From the NCBI RefSeq assembly GCF_000695095.2, contig NZ_CP011454.1:682001-746000 (forward strand): a stretch of DNA of 64,000 bases, read 5' to 3'. The position numbers and the translations under genes are program-made. How positions within the stretch are numbered: position 1 is the first letter of the stretch; each line of letters begins with the position of its first letter. Source of the DNA: Gemmatimonas phototrophica (GTDB taxonomy: Bacteria; Gemmatimonadota; Gemmatimonadetes; Gemmatimonadales; Gemmatimonadaceae). Of this stretch, positions 28,690-63,389 are shown piece by piece. The notes beneath the pieces are model-generated. The model did not search any database and was not told the origin of the DNA. It saw only the letters and a list, made by a program, of their open reading frames with translations.

Positions 28690-28706
28690 GTATTTGCGGT
28701 CAGATA

Positions 28707-28858
28707 GAACTGAAGACTGAAAACTCCCACTGCCAACGGAAAACTCCAACTCACAACTGAAAACTCCCCTCACGACGCAAGCGCCAGGCGGCGAGCAGGA
28801 GTTATAAGTTCTCAGTTGGAGTTCGCAGTTCTCAGTTGGAGTCTTCAGTTCTCAGTTC
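28707..28858. repeat. ACTGAAAACTC-type inverted-repeat element, copy 1
   Basis: The left arm (28707-28770) is four to five degenerate direct copies of ACTGAAAACTC(C). The right arm (28797-28858) is the same in reverse complement (GAGTTNTCAGTT). Together they can fold into a roughly 60-bp imperfect stem with a GC-rich 26-base loop. It sits after the preceding gene's terminator. A related element occurs at 50502-50641. Confidence 0.8.
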
Positions 28859-29131
28859 TTGAAGCTCAAATCCTGAATTTCAAATCTCACTGCTCATCTC
28901 TCCGCCAAATCCAGTCAGGCTTCCCCCGACCGTTCGTCCGGCCCAGCATGCTTGCTCCCCTCCGGTCCGGGGCGCACCGTCCAAGTGGTCAGTTCACCAC
29001 CCCGGACCGGCCCACGGCATTCCCTGCGAATCGCCGCGACCGTCGGGATCACTTGCGGACCGTCTCCCTGTTCGTGCGGTTCGCTCACCACGCCGAGTGG
29101 CGTCCCCCGCCACCGGCCGTCAGGAGGGACG
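28859..29131. other. Upstream region of EF-G-like gene
   Basis: 273 bases without a credible gene. An in-frame extension of the EF-G-like ORF reaches back to 28952 but has no coding character. The region presumably holds the promoter and leader of the EF-G-like gene, whose ribosome site AGGAGGG is at 29122-29128. I see no riboswitch or clear promoter boxes. Confidence 0.4.
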
Positions 29132-35732: not shown

Positions 35733-35868
35733 AAACGCGTACAAGCGTTATGGGTCATGAGTCATCGGGTCACCGAGTGACGGCGGTGAAAACACGCCAA
35801 ACCGCGGTACCCGCAGTTACTCGGTGACCTGATAACCCATAACCCATGACGCCTTTACACGCCGTTTC
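35732..35868. repeat. GGGTCA-type inverted-repeat element between convergent genes
   Basis: The left arm (35732-35781) and right arm (35816-35868) are reverse complements over about 50 bases with a few mismatches, e.g. GGGTCACCGAGT against ACTCGGTGACCT. The left arm repeats GGGTCAnnGAGT twice. The 34-base loop has its own small stem (GGCG...CGCC). It exactly fills the gap between the marR-like and FAD-oxidase stop codons, touching both. Confidence 0.85.
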
Positions 35869-43974: not shown

Positions 43975-44090
43975 ACCCGCAGTCTAGCGCGGGGCGTCGC
44001 TGTTGTGCAACACGAGTCGGGGGGGCGAGGCAATCGCTGGATGTGTGCCGGAGGCTGGGGGACCACAACAGCCGGGCGCCCTGCGGGCGC

Positions 44091-44235
44091 GACAACAGCC
44101 TGAGCTACGGCATGACAACAGCATGACAACAGCATGACAAAGCAACGAACAGAAAATGCACCGCTGTCACTGTGCTGCTCATCCGCTATTCCGCAGTGCT
44201 CATGCTGTTGTCATGCCGTAGCTCATGCTGCTGTC
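44091..44235. repeat. ATGACAACAGC-type inverted-repeat element
   Basis: The left arm (44091-44138) contains ATGACAACAGC in tandem. The right arm (44200-44235) pairs with its first 36 bases with few mismatches, including a perfect GAGCTACGGCATGACAACAG / reverse complement. The roughly 60-base interior has weaker pairing. It fills the 298-base gap between the GHMP kinase gene and the M20 deacylase gene on the minus strand. Confidence 0.8.
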
Positions 44236-44272
44236 CCGGCAGTCGTCGCTGTTTCCCCGGCAGCCGTTGCCG

Positions 44273-48662: not shown

Positions 48663-48732
48663 CGAAACTCGAACCCACGTCCCGCACCTGATCAGTTCCG
48701 GGTTCTGGGTTCGAGTGACGGGTTCGGGTTTC
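48663..48732. repeat. GAACCC-type inverted-repeat element, copy 2
   Basis: Same family as 12830-12903 and 50236-50308: CTGATCAGTTCCGGGTTCTG with flanking GAACCC units. The left arm is more degenerate here. It lies between the sigma-factor operon terminator and the convergent lpdA stop. Confidence 0.7.
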
Positions 48733-50143: not shown

Positions 50144-50235
50144 GGATTGCAAGATAATGGGGGGACCGTCACTGTCGAACGGGTTCTGGGTTTGCGCTAA
50201 CCGGTGAAAGCTGAAATGCCGGTCTGGGGCAGTGA

Positions 50236-50308
50236 GACCCATAACCCGGAACCCGAACCCAGAACCCAGAACTGATCAGTTCCGGGTTCTGGGTTCGAGT
50301 TTTGGGTC
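50236..50308. repeat. GAACCC-type inverted-repeat element, copy 3
   Basis: The arms are made of repeated GAACCC/AGAACCC (left) and GGGTTC(T/G) (right) around ACTGATCAGT (50271-50280). Pairing is extensive and ends with GACCC / GGGTC. It lies upstream of lpdA on the minus strand. The centre matches the other two copies. Confidence 0.78.
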
Positions 50309-50501
50309 GTGAGTATCTGCCGTCCATTTGTTACCCGGGTCACAGTCGCGCGTCCTGTACTTGACGGCACGAATCTCGCTGTTACCAATCCTATCGTTAG
50401 CAACGGCCCCAACCTTCGCGTTGAAAACGTCTGTTAACGAAGCCCGACGTCCCGGCGGAAACGCTTAGGGGCGTCGTGGTGCATTTGGGGGTGGATTTTG
50501 G

Positions 50502-50641
50502 AAAACTGACAACTGAAAACTCAAACTGACGACTGAAAACTCCCACTGAAAACTGAAAACTCCCAGCCGGGGCCAGGAGTGATCAGTTGTCAGTTCACGT
50601 TGTCAGTCGTCAGTCGAAGTTTTCAGTCTTCAGTTCTGAAA
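50502..50641. repeat. ACTGAAAACTC-type inverted-repeat element, copy 2
   Basis: The left arm (50502-50566) is about five tandem degenerate copies of ACTGA(A/C)AACT(C). The right arm (50577-50641) is their reverse complement (AGTTNTCAGT). A short GC-rich loop (CCGGGGCC region) separates them. It begins immediately 3' of the sucB stop codon. Same family as 28707-28858. Confidence 0.8.
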
Positions 50642-55532: not shown

Positions 55533-58088
55533 ATGACCGCACCGAACGCCCGCGAACGCATCCTGCCGCGCCTCATCGACGAGGAGATCAAGGAGTCGTT
55601 CATCAACTACTCCATGAGCGTCATCGTGTCGCGCGCCCTGCCGGACGTGCGCGATGGCCTCAAGCCCGTGCATCGCCGCGTGTTGTACGCGATGAACGAG
55701 CTCGGATTGATGCCCGGGCGTCCCTTCAAGAAGTGTGCGACGGTCGTAGGTGACGTGCTCGGCAAGTACCACCCGCACGGTGACAGCAGCGTGTACGACG
55801 CGCTCGTGCGTATGGTGCAGACCTTCTCGCTGCGTTATCCGCTGGTGGACGGGCAGGGGAACTTCGGGTCCATGGACGGCGACGGGGCGGCCGCGTACCG
55901 CTACACCGAAGCGCGCCTCACGCGCCTGTCGGTGGAAATGCTCAACGACATCGACCAGAACACCGTCGACTTCGCGCCCAACTTCGACGACCGGCTGGAA
56001 GAGCCGCGCGTGTTGCCGTCTGGCTTCCCCAACCTGCTGGTGAACGGTTCGTCGGGCATTGCCGTGGGCATGGCCACGAACATCCCGCCGCACAATCTCA
56101 AGGAAGTCATCGAGGCGGTCATCACGATCATCGACAACCCCGAGATCGAGCCGCAGGCGCTGCGCAAAATTGTCAAAGGGCCTGACTTCCCCACCGGCGG
56201 CTATGTGTACGGCCGGGCCGGCATTGCCGACTATCAGGACACCGGTCGCGGCCGCATCGTCATGCGCGCGCGTGCGGTCATCGAAGAAAAGGAATCGAGC
56301 AGCAAGTCGCAGATTGTCATCACGGAGCTGCCGTATCAGGTGAACAAGGCCAAGCTCGTGGCCGACATCGCCGAACTCGTGCGCGAGCAGAAGCTCACCG
56401 GCATCAGCGCGCTGCGCGATGAGTCGGACCGCGACGGCATGCGCGTGGTGGTGGAGCTCAAGCGCGATGCCATTCCGCGTGTGGTGCTCAATCAGCTGTA
56501 CAAGCACACCGCCATGCAGAGCACGTTCGGCGTGATCATGTTGGCACTGGTGCCCGATGTGAACACCCGGCAGCTGGTGCCCAAGGTGCTCACGCTCAAG
56601 CAGTGCCTGGAGCATTACGTGACGCACCGGCACGAGGTCATCGTGCGCCGCACGCAGTTCCAGCTGGACAAGGCGCTGGAGCGTGAGCACATCCTGGAAG
56701 GGCTCAAGATCGCCGTCGACAACATCGACGAAGTGATCGCCCTCATTCGGGCCGCCGAAGACACGCCCATCGCGAGCACGCAGCTCCAGACGCGGTTCGG
56801 ACTGTCCGAGCGGCAGGCGGAAGCGATCCTCAACTTGCGCCTTGCCAAGCTCACCGGCCTCGAGCGCGACAAGCTGGAGCAGGAGCTGCGGGAAGTGCAG
56901 GCCGAGATCATCGAGCTGCGCAGCATTCTCGAGTCGAAGCCGCGCCGCATGGAGATCCTCAAGGGCGAACTCCTCAAGGTCTCCGAGACGTACGGCGACG
57001 AACGCCGCACCGAGATCGTGAGCGACGAAGGCGAGTTCTCCATCGAAGATCTCATTGCCGAAGAAGAGATGGTGGTGACCATCACGCACAGCGGCTACTG
57101 CAAGCGGACGCCACTGTCGTTGTACAACCGCCAGGGGCGCGGCGGCCGCGGCAAGGCCAGCGCCGATCTCAAGGAAAACGACTTCATCGAACGCTTCTAC
57201 GTGGCCAGTACGCACACGTACATGCTGATTTTCACCGATGACGGTCGCTGCTTCTGGCTCAAGGTGCACGAATTGCCGCAGGCCGGGCGAAACACGCGCG
57301 GCAAGCCCATCGTGAACCTCATCAACGTCACCCCTGATACGCGCATTCGCGCCATCGTGGTCACCAAGGAGTTCTCGGATACCGAGTTCCTGCTCTTCGG
57401 CACGAAGAACGGCACGGTGAAGAAGACGGCGCTCTCGCAGTACTCCAACCCCCGGTCCAATGGCATCAAGGCCATCAAGATCGAGGAAGGCGACGAGCTC
57501 ATGGATGTGGCAGTGACCAGCGGCAGCAACGATGTGGTGCTGGCCACGCGCGACGGTCTGTCACTCCGTTTCCACGAGAGCGATGTCCGCGAGATGGGTC
57601 GTGATACCACCGGCGTGAAGGGCATCGAGCTCAAGCTCAACGACACCGTGGTGGGAATGGTCGTCATCAAGCGGGAGGCCACGCTGCTGGTGGTCACCGA
57701 GCGCGGCATGGGCAAGTGCAGCGAGGTGAGCGAGTACCGCGTGCAGAAGCGTGGCGGCAAGGGCATCAAGACGCTCGATCTCACGCAGAAGACCGGTCAT
57801 GTGGTGGCGCTCATGGAAGTCGTTCCCGAAGATGAGCTCATGCTCATGACGAAGGCCGGCATCGCCATTCGCTCCAAGGTCAGCGAAATCCGGGTCACCG
57901 GCCGCATTGCTCAGGGAGTGAAGCTCGTGGCGCTCGACGACCAGGACATGGTCATGGCCGTCGCGCGCGTGATTCCCGAAGACAAGGATGATGGGGACGA
58001 GGGGGCCGAGGGCGCGGGCGACAACGCGGGCAGCACGGGCGGCGACAGCGATGCCGGTCCCGAGCTCGCGCTGGGTGACGGCGAGTAA
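55533..58088 (+). CDS. gyrA: DNA gyrase subunit A
   Basis: Breaks and rejoins DNA during ATP-driven negative supercoiling. It has 851 residues from ATG 55533. The winged-helix region has the catalytic Tyr 122 in [11 protein letters not shown]. The quinolone-determining segment [13 protein letters not shown] carries Ser 85 and Asp 89, the residues equivalent to E. coli Ser83 and Asp87 in their wild-type state. The C-terminal beta-pinwheel includes the GyrA box QKRGGKG. Another pinwheel motif is RQGRGGRGK. The tail after residue 820 is acidic and Gly-rich. gyrB is not in the window. Confidence 0.97.
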
Positions 58089-58203
58089 GACGCCGTCGTC
58101 AATCTTCATCGGAGACCGCAGGTCCGGGGCACGTCCCCGGACCTCGCTCCGACTCAGTAGTGGGCAGCGCACAGGGCGCTGGCCGTGACCTCATGGGGTG
58201 GGA

Positions 58204-59682
58204 ATGGCGACGTCGCGCATCCTGGTAGCTGATGACGACGAGGCGGTGCTCGAATCCGTGACCTGGTTGCTCCAGGAGAACGGATACGATGTCGTTCCCG
58301 CAAACGGCGGCACCGCGTGCCTGGAGCAGCTCGAGAAGAAGTCTCCCGACCTTCTCCTGCTCGACATCCTCATGCCGGATGCTGACGGCTGCCAGCTGCT
58401 GGAGCGCATCAAGGGCGAAGAGCGCTGGCGCGACCTGCCAGTGCTCATGCTCAGTGCACAGCCCCCCGAAGAAGCCTCCGTGCGGTCACTGGGGCTCGGT
58501 GCCGCCGATTTCATCCGCAAGCCGTATCGCCCCAAGGAGCTGCTGGCGCGTGTTCAGGCGCAGTTGCGCATGGGGGCCCTGTTGCGCTCTACGCGCGCCG
58601 CCTTGCTGCGCTCTGAGGAACAGCTCCATCGCGCACAGCAGGACGCCGACAGCCGCCGCAAGTTGGTGGACATCCTGCACGAGGTCACCGGTGACCTGTC
58701 GGTGAGCGAGCTGTTTCACCTGCTGGTCCGTCGCGCCGCCCGGGCCCTGGGAGTGTCGCACTGTTCCGTGGTGTTGGCCCGGCCCGGTGACGCGCATGCC
58801 ACCGTCGTGGCGGCCTTTGAGAATCCGGGGCTGCAGCAGCTCGTCGTGCAGCTCGATCGCTACCCGGAACTCAAGGCGGCGCTGGAAAGTGGCCAGCCCG
58901 TGCTGGTGGAAGACCTCGATACGCACGAGCTGTACGAAGGGGTGCGCCACGTGTGGGGCATCGAAGGCATCGAGATCCCCATCCGTTCGGTCATTGCGCT
59001 GCCGTTCTCCATTGATCGCGGACAGTACGGCGTGTTCCTCGTGCGCCGCACGCGCGACCAGGAACGGTTCGGCCCCGCCGACCTCGAGTTTGCCCAGGCC
59101 GTGATCACCGCCGCCGTGGCTGTCATCCAGCGCGCGCAGATGGTGGAAAGCACCATGGCCGACAACGCGCGCCTGGAACAGCTCGCGCAAACCGATCCGC
59201 TCACCCAGCTGCTCAATCGGCGGGCGCTCACCGAACGCATCACCGCCGAAATGGAGCGGGCGCTGCGCTACGACAGTACGCTGGCGCTGCTCATGATCGA
59301 CCTCGATCACTTCAAGCGCGTCAACGATACCTACGGCCACCTCGTGGGTGACGACGTGCTGCGCGATGTGGCCCAGCTGCTCAGCGACACCATTCGTGGC
59401 AGCGATATCGTGGCCCGGTACGGTGGCGAGGAATTTCTGGTGCTGCTCCCCGAAACCGACGACGCTGGAGCGGAGTCGTTCGCCGATCGCATTCGGGCCG
59501 CCGTGGAAGAACACCAGTTCGCCAGCGATTCCCTGGGTGGCGAACCGCTGCGCCTCACCGCCTCAGTGGGCGTGGCCGTCTATCCGGCCGCCCGCATTGA
59601 AAGCGTGGAAGACCTCTTCGCGCGCGCCGACGCCGCACTCTACCGCGCCAAAGCCGACGGCAGAAACAGAGTCAGAATGTAG
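58204..59682 (+). CDS. REC-GAF-GGDEF diguanylate cyclase
   Basis: Signal-controlled enzyme that makes cyclic di-GMP, 492 residues from ATG 58204. The receiver domain (1-125) has the phospho-acceptor Asp 54 in LLLLDILMP. A coiled linker follows (about 126-160), then a GAF-like sensor (about 160-320). The GGDEF domain (about 330-492) has an intact active site GGEEF (407-411) and the product-inhibition I-site RGSD (398-401). It should therefore be catalytically competent and feedback-regulated. No histidine kinase is adjacent. Confidence 0.93.
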   Translation: MATSRILVADDDEAVLESVTWLLQENGYDVVPANGGTACLEQLEKKSPDLLLLDILMPDADGCQLLERIKGEERWRDLPVLMLSAQPPEEASVRSLGLGAADFIRKPYRPKELLARVQAQLRMGALLRSTRAALLRSEEQLHRAQQDADSRRKLVDILHEVTGDLSVSELFHLLVRRAARALGVSHCSVVLARPGDAHATVVAAFENPGLQQLVVQLDRYPELKAALESGQPVLVEDLDTHELYEGVRHVWGIEGIEIPIRSVIALPFSIDRGQYGVFLVRRTRDQERFGPADLEFAQAVITAAVAVIQRAQMVESTMADNARLEQLAQTDPLTQLLNRRALTERITAEMERALRYDSTLALLMIDLDHFKRVNDTYGHLVGDDVLRDVAQLLSDTIRGSDIVARYGGEEFLVLLPETDDAGAESFADRIRAAVEEHQFASDSLGGEPLRLTASVGVAVYPAARIESVEDLFARADAALYRAKADGRNRVRM

Positions 59683-59733
59683 AGCGGCCTCCGGATCTTC
59701 TCGTACTGAGTGATCCAGTTTGAGACGAGGACA

Positions 59734-59975
59734 GTGAGAGCGTTGAGACCATCGAGGTGCGATGGATATCGAATGTGAGAGGGTCGAGACAACCACGACA
59801 ATGAGAGGTCCGAGTGCTGGCGTCCGCTCGTAACGGCGGGGACGACCGCTGTTCCAGCGGCGTCCGTGGGGGGCACTCACGTGCGGAGGCAACTGCTCGG
59901 ACCTCTCACATCGTGGTTGTCTCGACCCTCTCACATTCGATATCCATCGCACCTCGATAATCGCAACGCTCTCAC
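59734..59975. repeat. GTGAGAG-type giant inverted-repeat element
   Basis: The left arm (59734-59814) and right arm (59896-59975) are reverse complements over about 80 bases. They include a perfect block of 48 bases that starts ATCGAGGTGCGATGGATATC. The arms contain GTGAGAGnGT(C/T)GAGAC in degenerate repeat. The 81-base centre has its own stem: 59840-59865 (GGACG-n-CCGCTG / CAGCGG-CGTCC). It lies between the convergent GGDEF and CoA-binding genes. Confidence 0.92.
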
Positions 59976-60034
59976 CTCCCCGTCCCGCCTCGGCAGACTG
60001 ACCTCGCACGTCTGGACACGGGACCCGAAAGCGC

Positions 60035-60499
60035 CTATCGCCGTATTCTGTCCAGTTCCACTTTGACGCAGCGGTCCTGGATCACGTCGATCCCTGCGCG
60101 CGCCAACTGCTCCGCCACCTGAGCGTGCCGTATGCCCAGCTGCATCCACACCACGCTGGGCTTGTGCGCCAGGATCTCGTCGAGATGACGCGGCACATCA
60201 TTGGGGCGCCGGAAGAGCTGCACCATATCGACCGGTGGTGAGATGGTCGCCAGTGAGCGATGTATTGGCGCCCCCAGAATCTCCTGGATGTCCGGGTAGT
60301 ACACGGGCACCGGAATGATCTCGTAACCGGACTGCTGCATGCGTTCCGGGACATAAAACGCCGGACCACCCACCATCGCCGGCTTGATGCCGATGACGGC
60401 CACGCGCTTCACACGCTCGAGTATACGCAATACATCCGCCGTGCTTTCCAGCAGATGGTCCCGCCATGACGGAGCCGTCGCAATTACATTCTCCTGCAC
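60035..60499 (-). CDS. CoA-binding domain protein
   Basis: A 154-residue single-domain Rossmann protein of the CoA-binding family (succinyl-CoA-synthetase-alpha-like N-terminal fold): VKRVAVIGIKPAMVGGPAFYVPERMQQSGYEIIPV and HKPSVVWMQLGIRHAQVAEQL. No catalytic residues are recognised; the ligand may be CoA or a nucleotide. GTG 60499 is preceded by GGGAGGGAG, which fixes the start; the longer upstream frame overlaps the divergent gene. The divergent neighbour is the saccharopine-reductase-like gene, 39 bases away. Confidence 0.8.
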   Translation of the reverse strand: MQENVIATAPSWRDHLLESTADVLRILERVKRVAVIGIKPAMVGGPAFYVPERMQQSGYEIIPVPVYYPDIQEILGAPIHRSLATISPPVDMVQLFRRPNDVPRHLDEILAHKPSVVWMQLGIRHAQVAEQLARAGIDVIQDRCVKVELDRIRR

Positions 60500-60538
60500 G
60501 ATCTCCCTCCCCGGATTATCACCACTGGAGTACCCCCA

Positions 60539-61693
60539 ATGCGTATGCTGGTGCTCGGGGCGGGGCTGCAAGGCTCCGCCTGCGCGTTTGATTTGCTGCA
60601 GGAACCCACGGTTACTCACGTCACCCTCGCCGACGTGCGCGTGGCGACGTTGCCCTCTTTTCTGCAGCAGCGCGCCGATGCTCGACTCGCGTGTGTCGCG
60701 CTTGATGTTCGTGATGCACACGCGGTCCGCGCGGCCTTTGCGCAGTGCGATGCGGTGTTGAGCGCGATTCCGTACTACTTCAACGCCGCCCTCGCACGAA
60801 TTGCTGTCGAGGTTGGCGTGCACTTCGCCGATCTTGGGGGGAACACGCAAATCGTGCAGGAACAAAAGCAACTGCACGACGCGGCGTGTGCCAAGGGGAT
60901 CAGCGTGATTCCCGATACCGGGCTCGCCCCCGGCATGGTCAACGTCGTCGCACAACATGGCATCGACCAATTCGACACGGTCGAGTCCGTACAGCTCTAT
61001 GTCGGTGGACTCCCCCAGGTGCCGGAACCACCACTCGGCTACCAGATCGCCTACTCCATCGAAGGGATGGTGGACTACTACACCACGCCTTCACTCGTGG
61101 TGCGCGATGGGACTCCCACCACCGTGTCAGCGCTTTCTGAAGTGGAGTTCATCAAGTTCGAGGACGGTGTCGGGACTCTCGAAGCGTTTCACACCGCCGG
61201 CGGCCTGTCCACCATGGTCTATCGCTACGCGGGAAAAATTCCGGTCATGGAGTACAAGACGCTGCGCTATCCCGGCCACGCCGCCGTGATGCTGGCCATT
61301 CGTGATCTGGGGTTGCTGAGCACCACACCGGTGGATGTCAAAGGGCAGCAGATTGCGCCGCGCGATGTGTTTGTGAAGGTGGCCGGCGAGGCACTGCGCA
61401 AAGGCAAGCCCGATCTCGTCGCCCTGCGCGTGGTGGTGGTCGGCAGCAAGGACGGTGTCTCCCGCACCCGTGCGTGGGAGGTCGTCGACCGCTACGACAG
61501 TGCCCACGCCATTTCGGCCATGATGCGCACCACAGGCTACACCCTCTCGATCACCGGGCAACTGCAGGCGGCCGGTGCGATCGCGCCGGGGGTGCATACC
61601 CCGGATGAATGCATTCCCGCCGAGCGGTACTTCGCCTTGCTGGCGGCGCGTGGGGTCATGGTGCGCGAAATCGCTACACCCGAAACTCCGTAA
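60539..61693 (+). CDS. Saccharopine dehydrogenase-like NAD(P) oxidoreductase
   Basis: A 384-residue enzyme. The Rossmann motif [18 protein letters not shown] is at residues 3-20. The saccharopine reductase-type body follows ([29 protein letters not shown], then [21 protein letters not shown]). The C-terminal domain includes the conserved [15 protein letters not shown] segment. Family members act on lysine or related amino acids; lysine dehydrogenase-type proteins have this length. The exact substrate is not determinable. It overlaps the convergent chemoreceptor gene by 20 bases. Confidence 0.82.
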
Positions 61694-63389
61694 TCAGGCC
61701 GCGTACGCGTAGGCTGGCCGTCTGCAGCATCTCCGCCGTCGCGCTCACTTCCTGCGCCGAGGCGGAGGTCTGCTCGGTGCTCGCCGCCACCTGTTCCGCG
61801 GCGGCGGCGTGTCCTTCGGCGGTATCGCGCGCCGCTGTCAGCGACCGTTGCACCTGACCGAGTGATTGCCGGTTGGTCTCCACCGCGTTGGTCACGCGCG
61901 CGGTGGCAACATCCACCTGCGCCACGGCGTGCTCAATGCGCGCGAGCGCGCCGCCAACCGCTTCGGCCACCGTTTCCACGTCACGCAGCCGGGTCGCACC
62001 GGCTTCCACCGCCCCGGAGGCACTGGCGATACGCGAGCGGAACCGCTTGACGTTCTCCGTGACTTCGTTGGCGGCATTGGCACTCTGTTCCGCCAGAGCG
62101 CGGACCTCCTGTGCCACCACGGCAAACCCACGTCCGGCGCTGCCGGCGCGTGCCGCCTCAATGGCCGCATTGAGCGCCAGCAGGTTGGTCTGCGTGGCGA
62201 TCTCGGAGATGACACTCACGAAGTCGTCAATCACACTCGTGGAGTCGCGCAGTGCCATCATTTCCTGACGCGACGCGGCTACCACTTCCCGTGCGTTGAG
62301 CAACGTATCCACGGCCACCTGCACCTGATCGCGGGCGCTGTTCGTGGTCGTGCGGATCTCGCGGCCCACTCGGTCGGTTTCGTCCGCTGCCTCACCAATC
62401 GTGGCGCCGGCTTCCGCCAGCTCCTTTACCGTTTCTCCCGCATGCTTGAGCGCAGACAGCTGCACACCAGCGCCGTGCGAAATGTCCATCACGGCCGTGG
62501 TGACATGCTGCGATGACGCCGCGGCCGACGAGGCCGACGCGGACAATTCGCTGGCGGCCAGCGTTACCTGATCGGCTTCTTCCTGCACCCGCGACAGCAG
62601 GATGCGCAGCCGTTCACGCGCCTGCTGCATGGCATCAATAAGCTCGGCGTATTCCTGGGCCACGCCACCAAAGCGGAGATCAATCTCCGGGTCGCGCAGA
62701 TCGCCGGCGCCAATGGCCATCATCTCGTCGCGCAGCTGCACCAGCGGATCGGTCACGGCCCGCGCCGTGGACAACCCGAAAAAGGCGGCTACGCCAAAGG
62801 CCAGGGCCACCACCACGGCGAGACTCGCCTCGGCATTGAAGAGGCCGTCCCGCATGGACTCCATGGAGGCGTCCGCCCCGCTGCGTGCGCCTTTGCGCAG
62901 GGCCTGCAGTTCGTTCTCGATGGCGTCCATGTCGCGCGTGGTTTGCGCGAGCACGCGGTCGGCGTTGGCCGTTTGCCCCGCCACCTGCCACGCGCGTGTC
63001 ACCGCAATGCGCACTTCGAGGGAGGCCTGCAGTCGTCCGATGTTCTCCAGGTGCCGCCGTTCGCTCGAGTTGAGCGCACCACGGCCCAGGGCATCATTGC
63101 GCAGCTGTTCGGCCTGCGTCACCAACGTGCGATACACCTGTTCGTCGTCGCTGGTGCCGGTGCTGAGGTAGCGCAGCCCGGCGACCAGTTCGCGCAGCAC
63201 GGTGTTGGTGGCGCGTTCAATGAACTCCGACCGGTCGGCCAACGCGCGGACCGTGTTTTCGGCGTCGCGATTACTGCGCGAGAGCCCGTACCAGCCCAGG
63301 AGACCGGCCACGAGCAACAGCGTGATGGAAATCCCGAAGCCCGCAATGAGTCGGGCGCGAATGGTGGTGAGGCGCCAGATACCGCTCAT
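61674..63389 (-). CDS. Methyl-accepting chemotaxis protein, coupled to a binding protein
   Basis: Chemoreceptor of 571 residues: TM1 (about 13-33), a helical periplasmic sensor (34-185, four-helix-bundle-like), TM2 (about 188-210), HAMP (211-265) and the signalling hairpin with [23 protein letters not shown] (about 395-417). Its start overlaps the stop of the upstream substrate-binding protein (63386-63389), so the two are made together. This suggests that the binding protein presents its ligand to this receptor, as in ribose or galactose chemotaxis. No methylation or CheR pentapeptide is obvious at the C-terminus. Confidence 0.93.

Follow-up and report, generated by a model that had tools for sequence, protein, structure and literature searches.

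A long hairpin between convergent genes of Gemmatimonas phototrophica belongs to a dispersed palindrome family with an S23 gene in one member

Introduction

Intervening sequences (IVS) of 23S rRNA with an S23 ORF occur in Leptospira and Brucella as well as in Coxiella, and to our knowledge the movement of IVS and the role of S23 have been puzzles since about 1990. ERIC and Correia/NEMIS elements are MITE-like palindromes, i.e., non-coding dispersed elements of 100-350 nt. For the heptamer repeats of cyanobacteria, Xanthomonas and Beggiatoaceae we know of no mechanism.

The IVS of Coxiella burnetii combines an S23 ORF with inverted ends and heptamer repeats, and the proposal has been made before that it is mobile by means of its ORF; 23S rRNA IVS are excised by RNase III (PMC4990558). 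Heptamer repeats have been described as TAACTGA in Beggiatoaceae (PMC4679880) and as GGGAATC, often in inverted pairs, in Xanthomonas and GGGGA(C/T)T in Nostoc (PMC4692102). Term searches of both reports (PMC4679880 and PMC4692102) returned no mention of S23 or four-helix-bundle genes.

Here, a near-perfect hairpin between two genes of G. phototrophica was analyzed. The hairpin lies in a window of 64,000 nucleotides (C1:682001-746000) of a genome assembled as a single contig (C1, 4,716,552 bases).

Results and Discussion

Structure and stability of the hairpin

The hairpin (59734-59975) consists of two ungapped arms of 65 nt (59734-59798 and 59911-59975) that are 95% complementary and are continued inward by a second paired segment (59802-59831 with 59879-59908). 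Folding of 59720-59990 as RNA yielded 113 pairs, 107 of them Watson-Crick, with 59721/59987 as the outermost pair. The longest unbroken stack comprised 48 perfect pairs between the left (59751-59798, + strand) and the right half (59911-59958, - strand) of the stem block. The folding energy was -203 kcal/mol for RNA (z -20.7) and -123 for DNA (z -19.3), and none of 200 shuffles folded as well. Among all 240-nt stretches of the window, the hairpin ranked first in stability by a wide margin (z -5.7; runner-up -3.9). The near-perfect pairing, the 48-base perfect block and the refolding centre of the original prediction were confirmed by these folds. Because a refolding part of 112 nt separates the arms, the hairpin is a spaced and not a perfect palindrome. 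The search of 58000-62000 against Rfam covariance models gave no match up to an E-value of 1.

The hairpin is a lineage-specific insertion

The intergenic region with the inserted element, delimited by synteny and by empty sites elsewhere, spans 352 nt (59683-60034). As predicted, it lies between convergent genes, which were assigned by Pfam to a Response_reg-GAF-GGDEF protein (diguanylate cyclase; 58198-59682, + strand) and a CoA_binding_2 protein (60035-60508, - strand; orthologues in 13 of 15 same-genus genomes searched). In 11 same-genus genomes the two genes are likewise neighboring and convergent, with gyrA next in synteny, and a mere 6-70 nt separates their 3' ends, compared with 352 nt in the window. 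The hairpin is therefore a lineage-specific insertion, and the comparison of the locus, which had been proposed as a check for sister strains, found the element missing at this site in all 11 sister species. Lineage-specific does not mean very recent, since even the closest of the species compared show differences at ~42% of fourfold sites. Neither a clean target-site duplication nor exact ends could be read at the window site, where the flanks are too diverged from the empty sites. The original prediction had taken the retention of such a structure as a sign of recent formation or function. The former holds in that the insertion is lineage-specific and its site empty in 11 sister species, but the hairpin was not formed at the site, as it is one of ~51 dispersed copies.

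The hairpin belongs to a dispersed family of palindromes

DNA searches together with R1, a sequence-only covariance model built from 68 arms, revealed ~80 arms at ~51 places across the 4.72-Mb chromosome. This family, termed F1, resembles MITEs in being short and non-coding, in its terminal inverted repeats and in its many insertion sites. An assembly artefact, which had been named as a possible refutation, is very unlikely because the chromosome is a single contig with dozens of non-identical F1 copies, each in a different intergenic region. In the window copy, the left arm (59722-59841, + strand; R1 match C1:741730-741836) and the right arm (59869-59987, - strand; R1 match C1:741870-741986), both placed by alignment A1, enclose an asymmetric, GC-rich centre (59832-59868) that folds into small hairpins of its own and varies among copies. 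In full F1 copies, the distance between the starts of the two inverted arms is mostly 174-180 nt, and the arm-spacing count gave 18 solitary arms. Most solitary-arm copies are of type B: one arm is complete, and of the other only the outer part is left, followed by heptads of the GGTTATG type (F2-type); copies with internal deletions were also found.

The arm core TGCGATGGATATCGA hardly varies among copies. Conservation of the 17-nt F1 core far exceeds that of the neighboring sequence, which suggests sequence recognition. The outer arms have a period of 7 nt (lag-7 identity 0.42 versus a mean of 0.28, pooled over the family). In the window, alignment A2 and model R2 place the left outer arm at 59706-59769 (+ strand), where it terminates in the core TGCGATGGATAT, and the right outer arm at 59940-60002 (- strand; E 1.9e-17). 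Scanning the genome with the outer-arm model R2 added few F1 places, and a pattern search for the F1 arm had no match in the genome contig collection.

With R1, nothing comparable to F1 was found in 29 same-genus genomes, so the family is essentially absent from them. The R1 matches in three genomes (G017, G032, and G036) were coding sequence, pilin-like in G017 and G032, and were dismissed as chance.

Placement of F1 copies and divergence of the arms

F1 insertions are intergenic and located mainly by gene 3' ends, with arms ending just past stop codons. According to the crude gene calls of a simple home-made finder, no divergent gene pair flanks any of the 28 full copies, though 41 of 241 sampled gene pairs are divergent. 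A reading of the palindrome as no more than a pair of 3'-end modules from convergent genes was abandoned in view of the fixed arm spacing and of full copies between codirectional genes. No F1 arm was found in C1:1849751-3156203 (~1.3 Mb; p ~7e-8 if the sites were independent, which they are not). Because the first gene of C1 is one which we take to be dnaA, recognized from its own sequence without a database search, this gap lies around the expected terminus. Separately, a 114-kb sample at 1.888-2.497 Mb was free of long palindromes of any family.

The avoidance of divergent pairs, the arm ends directly past stop codons and the core conserved far above its surroundings would all fit a retained bidirectional 3'-end element that terminates or protects both convergent transcripts in the manner of REP/BIME. 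However, purifying selection against insertions into genes and promoters would leave the same 3'-end placement, which moreover depends on the home-made gene finder; the hairpin lacks a T tract and gave no intrinsic-terminator match, 11 sister species have no hairpin at the same site, and the inner stem lacks a signal of compensatory pairing. We regard such a retained 3'-end element as unlikely.

Comparison of the arms bears on the predicted function of the pairing. In the inner arm, the similarity of the two arms within a copy (0.719) did not exceed that between copies (0.721), so that a function of pairing finds no support for the inner stem. In the outer arm a within-copy excess was found (0.591 versus 0.532; 0 of 2000 permutations). 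Left-arm and right-arm distances across copies were uncorrelated (Mantel r -0.09, p 0.70). Since the F1 arms do not covary, the window copy more likely owes its near-perfect stem to a sequence close to the family consensus than to selection for that stem. Arm shuffling or old decay would account for this lack of covariation just as well as copying of the whole unit would.

S23 and GxxExxY genes of the genome are bordered by palindromes

One F1 member (C1:1231114-1231973) encloses an intact S23 ORF between its arms (1231114-1231222, + strand, and 1231865-1231973, - strand). Its product was assigned to the S23 / 23S_rRNA_IVP four-helix-bundle family (PF05635, E 2e-16; TIGR02436, E 5.5e-18) and has a relative in the PDB (2gsc, E 7e-5), XCC0516, which is the S23 protein of Xanthomonas campestris ATCC 33913. 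The ORF is missing in the window copy, and among the F1 members found the one at C1:1231114-1231973 is the only one that carries S23.

The genome contains four S23 and four GxxExxY (PF13366) genes in total. Each of the eight has palindromes or inverted arms at its borders, in most cases of a family not shared with the others. F1, F2, F3, and F5 pair with S23 genes, whereas F6, F7, and two others pair with GxxExxY genes. An unbiased sample of 445 kb contained 23 long inverted repeats of several unrelated families (shuffles: 0-1). Nineteen of the 23 matched a palindrome of an S23 or GxxExxY gene with E<=6e-6, three of the 19 being those gene-flanking palindromes themselves; the best match among ~190 random control segments was 8e-4. 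Three of the four without a gene match were only 18-22 bp long, and no gene partner was linked to F4 and one other sampled palindrome.

The window contains further palindromes. Long F3 palindromes with AACTGAAAACTCC heptads and arms of 60-62 nt are located at 28706-28859 and 50504-50635, and F3 also borders the S23 gene at C1:1684458. An F2 palindrome (GCGTTATGGGTCATGAGTCATCGGGTCACC) lies at 35736-35861; F2 flanks the S23 gene at C1:3778395 with arms of 57 nt that are 96% complementary. The inverted repeat at 44088-44238, with a period of 11/23 nt (GACAACAGCATGA), matches the palindrome beside the GxxExxY gene at C1:2731476. F4 palindromes, composed of CCCAGAA heptads centred on TGATCA, are found at 50234-50317 and 48664-48730, and for these no S23 or GxxExxY partner was found.

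These associations bear on the question of how F1 spread. As a non-coding, multicopy family with inverted ends and a lineage-specific insertion, F1 could be a MITE that depends on a DDE or Y1 transposase of the usual kind, the S23 gene being a chance passenger of one copy. Against this, Y1_Tnp (PF01797) had no match in the genome while positive controls were detected, and no F1 member with a transposase emerged from the outer-arm scan. Furthermore, all eight S23 and GxxExxY genes are located at palindromes, most with a family of their own, and the same kind of repeats flanks S23 genes elsewhere, which makes an ordinary transposase quite improbable. Least probable is a local origin by strand switching or fold-back synthesis over a heptamer array, with spread by recombination or gene conversion and no dedicated protein: the heptamer periodicity, the copies with internal deletions or chimeric structure (type B) and the mixing of arms between copies agree with it, but the common arm of ~100 nt, the nearly invariant core, ~51 scattered sites and an empty ancestral site require copying of sequence between sites.

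The window copy as a probable non-autonomous mobile element

With a probability of about 0.72, we consider the hairpin to be a MITE-like, non-autonomous copy, devoid of the ORF, of a palindromic mobile element that is in general type like the 23S rRNA IVS. In the full element, two inverted arms of ~100-200 nt, heptamer-periodic toward the outside, would enclose a gene that encodes an S23 four-helix-bundle protein. Most F1 copies would have lost this gene or never had it, retaining the arms and a short folding centre. The S23 protein may recognize the arms or the hairpin and drive copying, possibly via a hairpin intermediate of DNA or RNA, and ORF-less copies such as the window hairpin would be moved in trans, as RAYT does for REPINs. 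Such S23-driven mobilization of F1 is inferred, and S23 could be a passenger, because only one S23-bearing F1 member was found. The surviving insertions would be those that break neither genes nor promoters. Transcripts of the window copy may be cut by RNase III, which is plausible by analogy because the 23S rRNA IVS that share S23 are excised by this enzyme (PMC4990558).

The inverted ends of F1 form a long stem like those of 23S rRNA IVS, and the member at C1:1231114-1231973, unlike the window copy, has an S23-family ORF in the loop. F1 differs from 23S rRNA IVS by its location outside the 23S rRNA gene, between protein genes, and by its ~51 mostly ORF-less copies per genome; its stem (48 perfect pairs, >100 in all) is longer than the IVS stem of 28 bp. 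With REPIN-RAYT and REP/BIME, F1 shares an intergenic palindrome population, paired and single-arm forms and the avoidance of divergent pairs. As in REPIN-RAYT systems, one gene per repeat family is flanked by family members, S23 or GxxExxY replacing RAYT, whereas the F1 arms measure ~100 nt instead of 20-30 and a cognate Y1 transposase is missing from the genome. By strict definition, the window copy is therefore neither an IVS nor a REPIN, though it resembles both. Like ERIC and Correia/NEMIS as generally known, F1 is non-coding and dispersed, has inverted ends and folds as RNA; it differs from them in its heptamer-periodic arms, the associated S23 gene and in having no known parent transposase. 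The 7-nt repeats in intergenic DNA resemble TAACTGA, GGGAATC, GGGGA(C/T)T and the cyanobacterial STRR, but the F1 heptads are degenerate and embedded in arms of ~100 nt.

With eight S23 and GxxExxY genes and matching palindromes for most of them, a single genome connects the puzzles of IVS, S23 and heptamer repeats. It also provides a testable system: a single candidate protein and a single repeat family, numerous copies, and close relatives that lack F1.

S23 genes in sister species and other phyla

The closest homologue of the F1 S23 protein is a protein of the sister genome G013 (57%, versus 23-36% for the other S23 proteins of the G. phototrophica genome). Its gene sits between two hairpins already picked up independently with the F1 arm model. 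The weak R1 matches in G013, at about nine places, share the hairpin architecture of F1 and have diverged in sequence, and such a diverged F1-like family was found only in G013 among 30 genomes. The S23 gene of G016 is likewise located between long palindromes (L191:17468-18474; arms up to 122 nt, ACGACTGCCGGCACGCC...). The sister species G031, G004, and G016 have 1.8-7.5 long palindromes per 100 kb, with sequences that differ from those of the genome analyzed here.

A wider survey with two query proteins yielded 21 S23 loci, 14 from Chloroflexi, Planctomycetes, Verrucomicrobia, Cytophagales and others and seven on plasmids, mostly cyanobacterial. In the flanks of the 21 loci, lags of 7, 14, and 21 ranked highest, with a lag-7 identity of 0.412 versus 0.265±0.008 (0 of 300 controls). 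Inverted repeats exceeded the 95th percentile of the controls at 7 of the first-named 14 loci. Heptamer inverted repeats thus border S23 genes in other phyla, as in Nostoc edaphicum, where the locus reads (GGGAGTA)n-S23-(TACTCCC)n. Plasmid GxxExxY genes tend to have inverted arms, but without the 7-nt period; a clean 9-nt period of GxxExxY flanks was not significant (29 of 300), and no GxxExxY relative was confirmed among viral contigs.

The presence of S23 genes between similar inverted repeats in many phyla suggests a widespread and overlooked kind of mobile palindrome. Tentatively, and at slightly less than even odds, S23 proteins (and GxxExxY proteins of the nuclease fold) may define a widespread class of transposase-free palindromic mobile elements, with each protein keeping up its own chromosomal population of non-coding hairpins. 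The 23S rRNA IVS and many heptamer repeats (STRR, TAACTGA, GGGAATC) would then be members or remnants of this class. In the open-access literature, where an earlier report could be missed, we found no paper tying S23 or GxxExxY to dispersed palindromes.

Some of the surveyed S23 genes have distinctive neighbors. On the plasmids of Anabaena sp. 90 (L222) and Pseudanabaena galeata (L226), heptamer-armed S23 genes are located between cas6 and cas4 in CRISPR loci, and the S23 gene of N. edaphicum (L225) lies between two ribonucleotide reductase genes.
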